A stretch of 35,425 nt of DNA from Candidatus Thorarchaeota archaeon (GTDB lineage: Archaea > Asgardarchaeota > Thorarchaeia > Thorarchaeales > Thorarchaeaceae), in NCBI GenBank assembly GCA_013388835.1, contig JACAEL010000021.1:1-35425 (forward strand), given 5' to 3'. Shown here one piece after another: positions 89 to 22,841 of this stretch; positions within the stretch are counted from its first letter, which is position 1, and each line of letters begins with the position of its first letter. The notes under the pieces are model-generated. The model worked only from the letters and a program-made list of their open reading frames with translations, had not been told where the DNA came from and did no database searches. Both the position numbers and the translations under genes were made by a program.

Positions 89-1057
89 TCAGCAGTCGTC
101 GCTGTGCTTCTGTGTGTCTGGCCCTAATGGCGTCTTCAGGCAACCTAGAATCAGCAGAGGAAAGAGGACCGTCGCATCACCTATGACAGTCTCATATCTC
201 GCTTCGCACTGTATCTTCTGCCAAGACACCCCTTCGGCAAGAGGCGCCCCGCTCAGGCTACCAGCCTCGGGGCGGTCCATGGTTATCTGCACAGCAAGGT
301 CGAGGCCGCCCTTCAGGATGGTACTCCCCATAGTGAAGTGCTTCGTGAGACCTCCACCGAGCATTATGGCACCGGTCTTCTTGACACTGGTAATAATCTC
401 TCCAAGTATTCGTAGATCCTTCACGAAGTCAAGTGATAGAGGCTTCATCGTGCTATATGTGTACATGTGGAAGCCGAGCATCGAGTCCATTAGTCCCGGC
501 GAGAAGACGGGGACATTCTTGAGATAGGCCTGCCTGACCACAGATTCGCTGTCCTCAATCGAGGCACCCAGAGCGGCAATGAACTCGCTCGGGGCAAGCC
601 CTGTTCGCTGTCGCTCGGTGAGCCCATCAAGAAACGCGTAGACTCTCTTCTCGAATGTCTCGAAGTCGCCCTCTTTGACAATGATGTCACCAATTCTGCC
701 CATACCGGCCTCCCGCAGTTCCGATTCTGTCTTGCGAGTTGGAACCCTGTAGTGACCGCCCCCGTAGGCCTCGATTAAATCGTGAACAATGTTGGCACCA
801 CTTGTGACCAGCGCGTCGACAAACCCGTCCGCAATCAACCTGCTGACGATGTAACGGAGCCCCCCGGGAATCATAGGCCCAGACAAGGAGAGGTAAGTGA
901 AGCAGTCCGGGTCACTGAACATCTCATGGACTATTGCTGCAGCGCGCCCCAGCCGACCTGCGCCGAGCACGCCTACTTCTCTCATCGCACTGACCAGTTC
1001 CGGTATTGTGGCACTGTCAGCACACTTTATGTGTTTGACCCGCTGCACGAGCTTCAC
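89..1057 (-). CDS. dys: Deoxyhypusine synthase
   Basis: A 322-residue deoxyhypusine synthase, which moves the butylamine group of spermidine onto a lysine of translation factor aIF5A in an NAD-dependent reaction. The glycine-rich segment GGGLTKHF around residues 234-241 holds the expected catalytic lysine (K239). It is followed by GVSWQKI near 276-282, which forms the NAD/spermidine pocket in the family. The N-terminal part contains the conserved SGANIVHDL stretch (86-94). Length is normal for archaea. The start is a GTG with no clear ribosome site. A TATA-like element about 28 nt upstream fits a leaderless mRNA starting there. The family is clear; the exact start is slightly less so. Confidence 0.95.
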   Translation of the reverse strand: MKLVQRVKHIKCADSATIPELVSAMREVGVLGAGRLGRAAAIVHEMFSDPDCFTYLSLSGPMIPGGLRYIVSRLIADGFVDALVTSGANIVHDLIEAYGGGHYRVPTRKTESELREAGMGRIGDIIVKEGDFETFEKRVYAFLDGLTERQRTGLAPSEFIAALGASIEDSESVVRQAYLKNVPVFSPGLMDSMLGFHMYTYSTMKPLSLDFVKDLRILGEIITSVKKTGAIMLGGGLTKHFTMGSTILKGGLDLAVQITMDRPEAGSLSGAPLAEGVSWQKIQCEARYETVIGDATVLFPLLILGCLKTPLGPDTQKHSDDC

Positions 1058-2049: not shown

Positions 2050-2334
2050 ATGTCAGCCACTGAAGTTCTGAAGGGCCGGAGAGGCGTCGTCACAAGCTAT
2101 CGGAGAGGCAAACACCTTCAGCATCCCAACCAGGTACTGATTCAGTTCGACGGAATAGAGACCAAAGAGGCTGCAGCCCGACTACTTGGCAGAGGTGTGA
2201 AGTGGGTTTCAGAGACTGGTCGGGAGTTTCTTGGCAGGGTTCTGGGACCGCATGGCAACAGCGGTGTTGTCCGTGCGAAGTTCAGGACAAACCTGCCGGG
2301 ACAGGCAATAGGAACGCAAGTCTATCTGATGTAG
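2050..2334 (+). CDS. rpl35ae: Large-subunit ribosomal protein L35Ae
   Basis: A 94-residue protein of the eL33/L35Ae family, a small beta-barrel protein of the large ribosomal subunit found in archaea and eukaryotes but not bacteria. Family signs are the N-terminal GRRGVVTSYRRGKHLQHPNQ stretch, the GRGVKW segment near residues 47-52, and the C-terminal GPHGNSGVVRAKF segment. The ATG has AGAGG 7 nt upstream. A candidate C/D box sRNA begins 38 nt after the stop with its own TATA element, so a guide RNA sits beside a ribosomal protein gene. Confidence 0.9.
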   Translation: MSATEVLKGRRGVVTSYRRGKHLQHPNQVLIQFDGIETKEAAARLLGRGVKWVSETGREFLGRVLGPHGNSGVVRAKFRTNLPGQAIGTQVYLM

Positions 2335-2342
2335 ACGTCAAG

Positions 2343-2350
2343 TTTTATCA
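2343..2350 (+). promoter_or_regulatory. TATA element for the candidate C/D sRNA
   Basis: TTTTATCA is centred about 27 nt upstream of position 2373, the predicted first base of the sRNA terminal stem. This is the spacing expected between an archaeal TATA box and a transcription start. Confidence 0.45.
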
Positions 2351-2372: not shown

Positions 2373-2444
2373 GGCTCCAATGATGTAGACGGCTATCTGA
2401 GGGTAGTCAGACCCTACGAAGAGTCATAGTTAGACTGAGGAGCC
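2373..2444 (+). ncRNA. Candidate C/D box sRNA, predicted guide to 23S rRNA helix 69
   Basis: The terminal stem pairs GGCTCC (2373-2378) with GGAGCC (2439-2444). It encloses box C ATGATGT (2380-2386, one base off consensus) and box D CTGA (2435-2438). Inside are D' CTGA (2397-2400), a GGGT/ACCC stem (2401-2404 with 2411-2414), and a degenerate C' ACGAAGA (2416-2422, 5 of 7 matches), so the inner pair repeats the outer architecture. The guide before box D (2420-2432) is the exact 13-nt complement of UAACUAUGACUCU. From memory, this is the loop and 3' strand of LSU rRNA helix 69 in crenarchaea and eukaryotes. The fifth base before box D (T2430) pairs with the A matching E. coli A1913 and yeast A2256, a known 2'-O-methyl site guided by snR63. 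Length 72 nt is slightly above typical. The D' guide target is not identified. Confidence 0.75.
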
Positions 2445-2477: not shown

Positions 2478-3059
2478 TTGACCGAGATTGTTATGCTTAT
2501 CTCAGCCTACTTCGTTGCGGGCTTGACTCTGAAGACGGGAGATGACCTGCTCGATGAACTCGACAAGCCCAGATTGGCTTGGTTCCCGTTAGTACTATCC
2601 GGGATCCTCTTCGGCATGATAATGACTCAGTCTGAGTGGGACCTGGTCGTAATGACCGCGATAGTGGTGGGTGTTGCCGCTTCTGGAAAGGTCGACCGGC
2701 GACAGTTCGCTGGAGGACTGGCCATGATTGTGATTGTGCTTCTTCTCAGAGGACTGCCAGCAGTCACTAGCTGGCTTGAATGGACCGCTCTGCTCATCAT
2801 GCTATTCATGGCCGCAGTCTTGGACGAGAAAGGGAATGACTGGGCAGACGCGGAAGTCTCACCACGCGCAACAAAGTTCTTTGCATACCGGCTCACTCTA
2901 AAGGCTTCAGTCCTGCTCCTGTGTATTCCATGGCCACCACTACTCCCATCAGCGATTGCGTTGTGGTTCTTCGACCTCGGCTATGAGCTTGCCAGATACG
3001 TCCTCAGATCTTGGGCGGATAGACGTGTAGTGGAGCAAGACTACAGCACACGTCCATGA
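2478..3059 (+). CDS. Polytopic membrane protein with two Asp-rich loops, unknown function
   Basis: A 193-residue protein with about five or six hydrophobic segments (roughly 4-18, 34-50, 55-69, 80-96, 101-115 and 140-165). Two acidic motifs sit at segment boundaries: GDDLLDELD (21-29), and DEKGNDWADAE (116-126) after the fifth segment. Paired Asp motifs on the same membrane face recall metal-dependent membrane prenyltransferases, but the spacing does not match UbiA and I do not assign that function. The start is TTG; an in-frame ATG five codons later (2493) is an alternative. The 3' end overlaps the convergent radical SAM gene by 56 nt. Confidence 0.65.
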   Translation: MTEIVMLISAYFVAGLTLKTGDDLLDELDKPRLAWFPLVLSGILFGMIMTQSEWDLVVMTAIVVGVAASGKVDRRQFAGGLAMIVIVLLLRGLPAVTSWLEWTALLIMLFMAAVLDEKGNDWADAEVSPRATKFFAYRLTLKASVLLLCIPWPPLLPSAIALWFFDLGYELARYVLRSWADRRVVEQDYSTRP

Positions 3060-20075: not shown

Positions 20076-20459
20076 CTAGTTTCCCACCTCCACCTCAATG
20101 TCGGTGATAACAAACTCCTTTCCGCCAGATATTGTTGTATGGCTGCCACCGCACCTCGAGCACTTCATGGGGGCAAAAATGGCAACCTGCGGCGGAAGTG
20201 AATAGTCCACTTTGCTCTCGCCCTCAAAACCGCACTCCTGACACTTCAAGCGCCCCTTGGTTCTCTTGATGTGAAGCTCAGCTCCCTCCATGATTGTATC
20301 CTTTGAGGCAATCTCGAAGTTGAACGCAAGCTGCTCTGGAACCAAGAACGTAAACTCACCGACTTCGATGTTCACCGCCTTTATCCTCTTGACCTGGTGT
20401 GCCTTGGCAGCGTCAAGAGCAGCCTCAACTATTGAGAGAGCAGCAGAGAACTCATGCAT
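20076..20459 (-). CDS. hypA: Hydrogenase nickel-insertion protein HypA
   Basis: A 127-residue HypA that delivers nickel to the NiFe-hydrogenase active site together with HypB. The N-terminus MHEFSAALSIV carries the Ni-binding Met1-His2 pair. The zinc site is C73-x2-C76 and C100-x2-C103. The helix-strand pattern KAVNIEVGEFTFLVPEQLAFNFE is typical of the family. Length is normal. A TATA-like palindrome lies 32 nt upstream. It is on the same strand as hypE but separated from it by the S8e and HEAT genes, so the two hyp genes are not one operon. Confidence 0.95.
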   Translation of the reverse strand: MHEFSAALSIVEAALDAAKAHQVKRIKAVNIEVGEFTFLVPEQLAFNFEIASKDTIMEGAELHIKRTKGRLKCQECGFEGESKVDYSLPPQVAIFAPMKCSRCGGSHTTISGGKEFVITDIEVEVGN

Positions 20460-21278: not shown

Positions 21279-22841
21279 CTATTTCTTGTCCCCTTTCCTG
21301 TAAGACTCGGCCAGCAAGTCGGGAATGTATCTGGTCTTTATCTCTGTGCCCTTCAGGATGTCGGATATCTGGATTGTACAGAATGGACACTCCGTAGCAA
21401 CCATCTCAGCACCTGTGGCCTCGATGTACTCCTTCTTGGTGGTGGCTATCTTCTGAGATAGTTCCCGCTTTCCTGCGCGGACACCACCACCTGCACCACA
21501 GCAGCGGTTCCGATAAGGGTCTGGGATATACTCTATGCCCGGAATGAGCTTCAGTAGATCTACCGGCTGGTCCACGACCCCCTGCCCCCTGCCGAGATGG
21601 CATGGCTCATGATAGGTGATCTTCGTCTTGATGACACCCTTGGGCTTCACGATGTTCTCAATACCAATCACATCAATCATGTACTCTGCCAAGTCGTACA
21701 CTTTGAACTTCGGAGGTTCGCCTCGTTCTTCCTCAATCAGCGGTCGATGGTCTTCCCGGAGAGTCTTGCCGCAGCCAGCACATGCAACTACGACCGTGTC
21801 TAGGTTGTACTTCTCTGCGACAGTCTCGAATATCTCCGTGACTCTGTGAGCTGCAGCCCTAGCAGTGTGCAGGTCACCCGTCCTAAAGGCGGGACTAGCA
21901 CAACACCACTGCTCTTTGGGCACTACAACATCGATGTTGTTCCGATTGAGCACTTCAATCAGAGACCGCCCGGTTTCCTGCATCCTATAGTCTATCAGAC
22001 ACCCGGTGAAGAAGGCCACTCGGCCTCGCGGGTTCTTTACGAAGAAGGTCTCTGTGTCGATGCTCTTCAGGAGAGGGGTGTCCTTCACAGGCACAGAACG
22101 ACCCGTAGCGACAATCGAGTCCACGAAACCCTGTTGTCCCTCGGCCAGCGGATAGCCGGCCTCAACAGCCTTAGCACGCAGAAGCTCCACGGCTAGGCTG
22201 GGAATCTTGATCTTCTTTGGACAGATGTCTTCGCACATCTTGCAAGTCGTACAGGAGTACAACGACTCGTCCATCGCCATTGCCACACGGTCCTCCACAT
22301 CACGTGGGTCGAGTTCCAGCCGCGCAAGCTGCCGGATGATCATTGGTCCAGGGTAGTCCCAAGTCTCATGGACAATGGGGCAGTTCGACAGGCAGGCGCT
22401 GCACTCAATGCACTTCCTTATCTCCCTGAGCTTCTCGATCTCTTCAGAGTGGATTATCTCCGGTCTCTGAGGAGGCTTATCACGAGCGACATACGGGCGA
22501 ATGCGCCGAATCCTGTAGGTGACCTGAGAGATGTCAACAACCAAGTCCTTGATGATTGGCATCTTCTCAAGTGGCTCAAGTAGAAGATCTCCTTTGGGGT
22601 TCACTTTCGTCCTGCATGCAATTCTTGCAATGCCATTGACTCTGACTGCACAGGAACCGCATTGACCACCTCTACACTCCCATCGAAATGCGAGGCTGGA
22701 GTCGTACTTGTCCTGGATGTATAGAAGAGCGTCGAGAACCGTCATTCCCGGTTTGTACTCGACATCGAACTCTTGGAGGAATGGTGCATCGTCCTTGTCC
22801 GGGTTGTATCGCTGGACTCTGGCTTTGATTGTCTTTGTCAT
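21279..22841 (-). CDS. tfrB: Fumarate reductase Fe-S/CCG subunit, TfrB-type
   Basis: A 520-residue fusion of a SdhB/FrdB iron-sulfur part and a heterodisulfide-reductase HdrB-like part, as in thiol:fumarate reductase subunit B of methanogens. Residues 56-76 hold a 2Fe-2S site (C56, C61, C64, C76). Two ferredoxin motifs follow (C144, C147, C150, C154 and C197, C200, C203, C207). Two CCG domains come next: WCCASPAF with VVACAGCG, and YHEPCHLG with RCCGAGGG and ATECPFC. In methanogens the CCG part oxidises coenzymes M and B; the donor thiol here is unknown. No membrane-anchor gene is adjacent. The gene follows tfrA after 12 nt. Confidence 0.92.
   Translation of the reverse strand: MTKTIKARVQRYNPDKDDAPFLQEFDVEYKPGMTVLDALLYIQDKYDSSLAFRWECRGGQCGSCAVRVNGIARIACRTKVNPKGDLLLEPLEKMPIIKDLVVDISQVTYRIRRIRPYVARDKPPQRPEIIHSEEIEKLREIRKCIECSACLSNCPIVHETWDYPGPMIIRQLARLELDPRDVEDRVAMAMDESLYSCTTCKMCEDICPKKIKIPSLAVELLRAKAVEAGYPLAEGQQGFVDSIVATGRSVPVKDTPLLKSIDTETFFVKNPRGRVAFFTGCLIDYRMQETGRSLIEVLNRNNIDVVVPKEQWCCASPAFRTGDLHTARAAAHRVTEIFETVAEKYNLDTVVVACAGCGKTLREDHRPLIEEERGEPPKFKVYDLAEYMIDVIGIENIVKPKGVIKTKITYHEPCHLGRGQGVVDQPVDLLKLIPGIEYIPDPYRNRCCGAGGGVRAGKRELSQKIATTKKEYIEATGAEMVATECPFCTIQISDILKGTEIKTRYIPDLLAESYRKGDKK

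Follow-up and report, generated by a model that had tools for sequence, protein, structure and literature searches.

A conserved box C/D sRNA gene of Asgard archaea with a predicted methylation target in helix 69 of 23S rRNA

That box C/D guide RNAs select the nucleotide five positions from box D for methylation (the N+5 rule) is established (PMC7089733). For archaea, Dennis et al. (2015) predicted dense methylation of helix 69 around A1912 in hyperthermophiles and a hotspot across helices 68-71 (PMC4644070). The C/D guides of archaea are said to evolve fast, and no single site was common to all seven species in the seven-species comparison given in PMC7994747. In yeast, snR63 accounts for Am2256, a helix 69 modification at the A-site tRNA that is conserved in human, and snR75 is listed as the guide for Gm2288 (PMC8307265); U46 is tabled as the counterpart of snR63 (PMC2780460). 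Since helix 69 is already a predicted hotspot, an archaeal guide directed to it is not new as a kind. The sRNA described here has boxes C, D and D', the spacing, the terminal stem, the two neighbouring (here predicted) rRNA targets and the core proteins of archaeal double-guide box C/D sRNAs, and differs in its Asgard lineage and in that a single locus and its D target persist through much of a phylum. In the literature consulted, outside the supplement of PMC4644070 in which its exact helix 69 sites lie, we found no Asgard C/D sRNA, no phylum-wide conservation of one and no case of two yeast sites served by one RNA.

The locus lies near the start of a 35,425-nt stretch of DNA (hereafter the window) from a Candidatus Thorarchaeota archaeon (assembly GCA_013388835.1, contig JACAEL010000021.1, positions 1 to 35,425), where a box C/D sRNA gene had been proposed from the letters alone. 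Every element of that proposal was present, i.e., the terminal stem, boxes C, D and D', a degenerate C' and a 4-bp inner stem (Table 1), and both stems covary among relatives. As is usual for archaeal box C/D sRNAs, boxes C and D stand beside the terminal stem, with the last base of box C off consensus; internally, the degenerate C' of the window corresponds to a canonical TGAYGA in other families. The 12-nt spacer before box D is complementary to its putative target and forms a Watson-Crick pair at +5, as judged on the 23S rRNA of relatives (the window's own assembly lacks a 23S match). A composite pattern (box C, two CUGA boxes and a perfect 6-bp stem), defined only after the element had been seen, matched once in the window and in none of 300 Markov-simulated windows. 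Rfam returned no family at its cut-off for this RNA; under permissive thresholds the best sub-threshold match was a C/D snoRNA model, SNORD109A (14.4 bits). A second C/D sRNA beginning at 2446 (sR35, 9.2 bits) was rejected, because its score reaches no threshold and similarity among the aligned relatives fades at this point. At the level of sequence, the identity of the element as a box C/D sRNA gene is thus confirmed.

Table 1. Features of the sRNA gene and its upstream neighbourhood in the window
Feature	Position	Strand	Evidence and remarks
Ribosomal protein L35Ae gene, upstream neighbour	2050..2334	+	Pfam PF01247, 3e-23
TATA-like promoter element GTTTTATCA (putative)	2342..2350	+	TTTA-containing element starting 28-31 nt before the stem in 29/38 family loci
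Box C/D sRNA gene	2373..2444	+	Model R1, 88.2 bits, 6.6e-19 (the sequence is among R1's own 26); stem covariation
Terminal stem, 5' arm GGCTCC	2373..2378	+	Pairs with 2439-2444; 98.7% of cells paired; two-sided changes in 3/6 pairs
Box C ATGATGT	2380..2386	+	RUGAUGA with the last base changed
D' guide AGACGGCTAT	2387..2396	+	GGCTA invariant in 26 family members; family pairing 5.5-9.5; candidate target the GUAGCC segment downstream of helix 69, weak here
Box D' CTGA	2397..2400	+	Alignment and pattern
Inner stem-loop GGGT-loop-ACCC, D' to C'	2401..2414	+	Two-sided changes in 3/4 pairs; 93% of cells paired
Inner stem arms	GGGT 2401-2404, ACCC 2411-2414	+	
Degenerate C' region TACGAAGA	2415..2422	+	Canonical TGATGA or TGACGA at the equivalent place in other families
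D guide GTCATAGTTAGA, 12 nt	2423..2434	+	Complementary to 23S helix 69; +5 opposite the A equivalent to yeast A2256
Box D CTGA	2435..2438	+	Alignment and pattern
Terminal stem, 3' arm GGAGCC	2439..2444	+	Pairs with 2373-2378

The element is conserved well beyond the window, and this, with the covariation of its stems, is stronger evidence than the composite pattern. BLAST alignments of relatives to a 111-base query ended near the edges of the sRNA (mostly at query positions 20-100 of 111), and similarity is confined to the sRNA, which is the opposite of the pattern that would have spoken against the original prediction (conserved flanks around unconserved boxes and stem). In a MAFFT alignment of 26 homologues from the Thorarchaeota family to which the window belongs (f1), GGCTA, TCATAGTTA and the boxes are retained, two-sided changes occur in six of the ten stem pairs and 96.4% of cells are paired, a level reached by none of 500 shuffles and by no slid version. 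A covariance model of this set (R1, the same 26 family members) matched 76 of 227 Asgard genomes (44 of the 47 in f1 and 32 outside it), and a second model (R2, built on 32 matches from several families) matched 164 of 227, so that the search proposed for related genomes returned homologues in most of f1 and far outside it; the f1 genomes G024, G034 and G219 gave no match with R1, nor with R2 and laxer filters. The core complementary to helix 69 was present in 77 of the 82 model matches fetched (a sample) and in 22 of the 23 families examined, or 21 without the dubious f19, although these counts are partly circular because both models contain the guide, a circularity that does not extend to the stems or to the match between each guide and its own target. 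The phylum-wide distribution of the predicted sRNA goes beyond what had originally been proposed.

Several candidates were set aside along the way. The weakest model matches (L213, L116, L117, L119 and L252-L255) were rejected as helix 69 guides on reading their sequences, and L212, the f19 match, has the core with a poor D box and was excluded from the count. L213 (G093), L252 (G054), L253 (G049) and L254-L255 (G057) are other C/D-like Asgard RNAs with different guides that the model picked up. A pattern containing the full 13-nt guide was too strict, matching only 2 of 59 genomes, as its three extra bases are unconserved. A scan of the contig collection, which allows one spacing only and is no proof of absence outside Asgard archaea, yielded 41 stretches, mostly Asgard, with at least nine bacterial ones, i.e., chance level; its matches in other archaea, L172 (Bathyarchaeota) and L178 (Thermococci), have no box C at the expected distance. 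One Sigynarchaeota contig (L096, G206) carries a divergent pair of copies, one per strand and separated by about 120 bases (642-720, minus; 838-912, plus), with identical helix 69 guides and different D' guides.

The search for 23S rRNA in the window's own assembly gave no match; 31 of 59 relatives yielded 23S genes, as did 17 of another 39 genomes. Of 16 f1 genomes compared, 15 have the helix 69 sequence GGGAC-UAACUAUGA-GUCUC, and the D guide of the window forms 10 contiguous base pairs with it, at guide +2 to +11. The complementarity of 13 nt first proposed did not hold, since the helix 69 stem assumed for that proposal differs from that of Thorarchaeota; C/D guides reportedly recognise ten base pairs at most, going by the title of a 2016 PNAS paper by Yang et al. 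The proposed target itself was borne out: helix 69 was assembled in 41 relatives, and in 38 of these the guide pairs at 9 or 10 of 10 positions with the genome's own rRNA. Among the 35 parsed genomes, the pairing at +2 to +11 is Watson-Crick at 10/10 positions in 23 and at 9/10 in 12, and +5 is paired in all 35 in a single register; three more genomes (G057, G047 and G055) pair 10, 10 and 9 of 10, respectively. No guide of this type was recovered from the remaining three of the 41, namely G049 and G054, which have other C/D-like matches, and G190, which has none. The 23S rRNA of the window's organism should contain CUAACUAUGA.

The nucleotide opposite guide position +5 is the second A of UAAC in helix 69, which we take to be A1913 in E. 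coli numbering. Short guide sequences are able to converge, and the Asgard sRNA is likened to yeast snR63 and vertebrate U46 by target position, not by RNA sequence; its gene context differs from theirs, and the adenosine it is predicted to select is, in a colinear alignment, the same nucleotide that snR63 and U46 target. The assignment by the N+5 rule to the equivalent of A2256 had been part of the original prediction and was upheld, as the offset from UAAC matches. In the same colinear count along the yeast 25S sequence, with the modification numbers taken from the table in PMC8307265, yeast positions 2256, 2258, 2260, 2264, 2266, 2278, 2280, 2281 and 2288 all fall on the right letters. The sRNA thus very probably directs a methyl mark to a ribosome position that is also marked in yeast and human.

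The D' spacer usually complements rRNA 20-35 nt downstream of the D target, and a likely D' target downstream of helix 69 adds to what had been proposed for this locus. In seven families (f2, f4, f6, f7, f10, f14 and f22; nine genomes with their own 23S), the best D' site puts +5 on the equivalent of yeast G2288, with scores of 7.5-12 and own pairings beating permuted ones in all but 39 of 5,000 permutations, although the D' boxes were chosen by eye and are degenerate in f22 and f6, as in f9 and f28, leaving the register uncertain by at least one position, in f22 above all. The G faced is that modified with snR75, a separate snoRNA in yeast, so that one Asgard RNA would serve two sites that take two snoRNAs there; in the window's own family this G is not the D' target. 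In f1, the best D' site near helix 69 is the equivalent of C2277/C2278 in 16 of 16 genomes, with scores of 5.5-9.5 that shuffled guides matched in up to 70 of 500 cases, and the window's own spacer pairs weakly, over about 6 positions. The G2283 equivalent is the predicted D' target in six of eight f18 genomes (9.5-10 pairs) and is lost in two, f27 and f3 show no D' target near helix 69, and in f9 and f28 the D' targets would lie near yeast A2280/A2281 by hand alignment. Separately, insertions ranging from about 30 to 880 bases separate helix 69 from the GGUAGCC segment in some 23S genes (L138, L143, L145, L034 and L037, belonging to G110, G112, G142, G038 and G049), exactly between the two target sites of the sRNA. 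The place is, we presume, a classic homing site and the insertions look like rRNA introns; the sRNA might sense or require their splicing.

The proximity of the D and D' sites, which most families space by about 20-35 nt, would also suit a genuine C/D sRNA whose main role is that of a folding clamp, in which the two guides bridge helix 69 and the downstream segment during large-subunit assembly and methylation is incidental, and a chaperone role of double guides has been proposed (PMC4644070, PMC7994747). We consider this unlikely, as the Watson-Crick pair that methylation requires at +5 of the D guide is kept in all 35 genomes, and as the D guide persists where D' contacts are poor or absent (f1, two of eight f18 genomes, f27 and f3). 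Methylation of the helix 69 adenosine is the function that we favour for the D guide.

Changes in the guide follow those in the rRNA. Where C precedes UAAC, 17 genomes have G and 6 have A at guide +2, the mismatch of A with rRNA C being found in six f1 genomes; where G precedes it, +2 is C in 10 genomes and G in 1; and where A does, +2 is A in the one genome concerned. Likewise, UAUAA loops go with UUAUA guides (f27, f3, G047 and G057) and a UGUGA loop with a UCACA guide (G045, f10), and f4 and f2 are left with one loop mismatch. Across 11 families represented by one genome each, own guides and targets pair at 106 of 110 positions, compared with a permuted mean of 97.7, and none of 20,000 permutations reached 106; guide and helix 69 target covary between families. 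The main target could conceivably be another RNA (a tRNA or mRNA), with the helix 69 match fortuitous, given that our scan covered 23S rRNA and that about a third of archaeal C/D sRNAs in a seven-species set had no rRNA match (PMC4644070), but such tracking of the rRNA in each lineage makes this very improbable, as does the finding that in 28 of 29 genomes no site on the scanned 23S stretch surpasses helix 69, which is tied in two, G061 having a slightly better one elsewhere in its own 23S.

The sRNA starts 38 nt past the L35Ae stop codon, in agreement with the proposed position after that gene, and 38 of the 44 f1 loci were surveyed for both L35Ae and the TATA element: L35Ae stands upstream and on the sRNA's strand in 37 of them, within 100 nt in 35. 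A crude motif search found no L35Ae neighbourhood outside f1, a result too coarse to establish that it is absent there. The TATA element expected upstream was recovered as a TATA-like sequence with comparable elements across the family (Table 1); its distance to the stem is kept while that from L35Ae to the stem varies, which argues for a promoter of the sRNA's own. A conserved structure in the 3'-UTR of L35Ae mRNA, such as a regulatory kink-turn of the kind that L7Ae is reported to bind in archaeal mRNAs (PMC5539422), would fit the usual closeness of the two, but is highly unlikely given gaps of 459 and 1665 nt in two family genomes and no adjoining L35Ae found in a third, a TATA-like element that holds its distance to the RNA and not to L35Ae, and a guide whose tracking of helix 69 an autoregulatory structure would not need. 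In L131 (G226), a broken copy (20287-20341) adjoins L35Ae and an intact one (21906-21978) lies 1.6 kb downstream, an apparent duplication followed by decay. The window also holds a 193-aa hydrophobic ORF with no Pfam match downstream of the sRNA (2478-3059, plus strand) and, upstream on the opposite strand, a deoxyhypusine synthase gene (89-1057, minus strand; PF01916, 8.4e-91).

The organism encodes all three core proteins: fibrillarin (PF01269, 5.6e-83) and Nop5 (PF01798, 5.3e-67) are adjacent on one contig of its genome, which also has two matches to the L7Ae family (PF01248). We infer, with a probability of roughly 90% for the account as a whole, that a methylation-guide RNP is formed here. 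The sRNA would be transcribed from its own promoter, L7Ae would bind the C/D and C'/D' kink-turns, and Nop5 and fibrillarin would then join. The 12-nt spacer before box D would form 10 bp with the loop and the loop-proximal stem of helix 69, where fibrillarin would 2'-O-methylate the A opposite guide +5, the equivalent of yeast A2256 and presumably of E. coli A1913. The D' spacer would bind the same rRNA neighbourhood 20-35 nt downstream, possibly for a second methylation and possibly holding the region during folding; this second site would lie near yeast G2288 in most Asgard families, with the D' contact shifted upstream and weakened in f1.

The retention of the guide across about 21 Asgard families, tracking helix 69, suggests strong selection for a methyl group in a bridge that touches the A-site tRNA. 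The predicted site is common to yeast and human and lies in the archaea closest to eukaryotes; the rRNA modification maps of archaea and eukaryotes are thereby connected in a concrete way that can be tested. A single C/D sRNA of the Asgard ancestor, with sites of the snR63 and snR75 types, may even have been inherited by eukaryotes and split into the Am2256 and Gm2288 snoRNAs; we regard this as a doubtful proposal, yet if true, named snoRNAs of eukaryotes could be traced back to an archaeal guide RNA.
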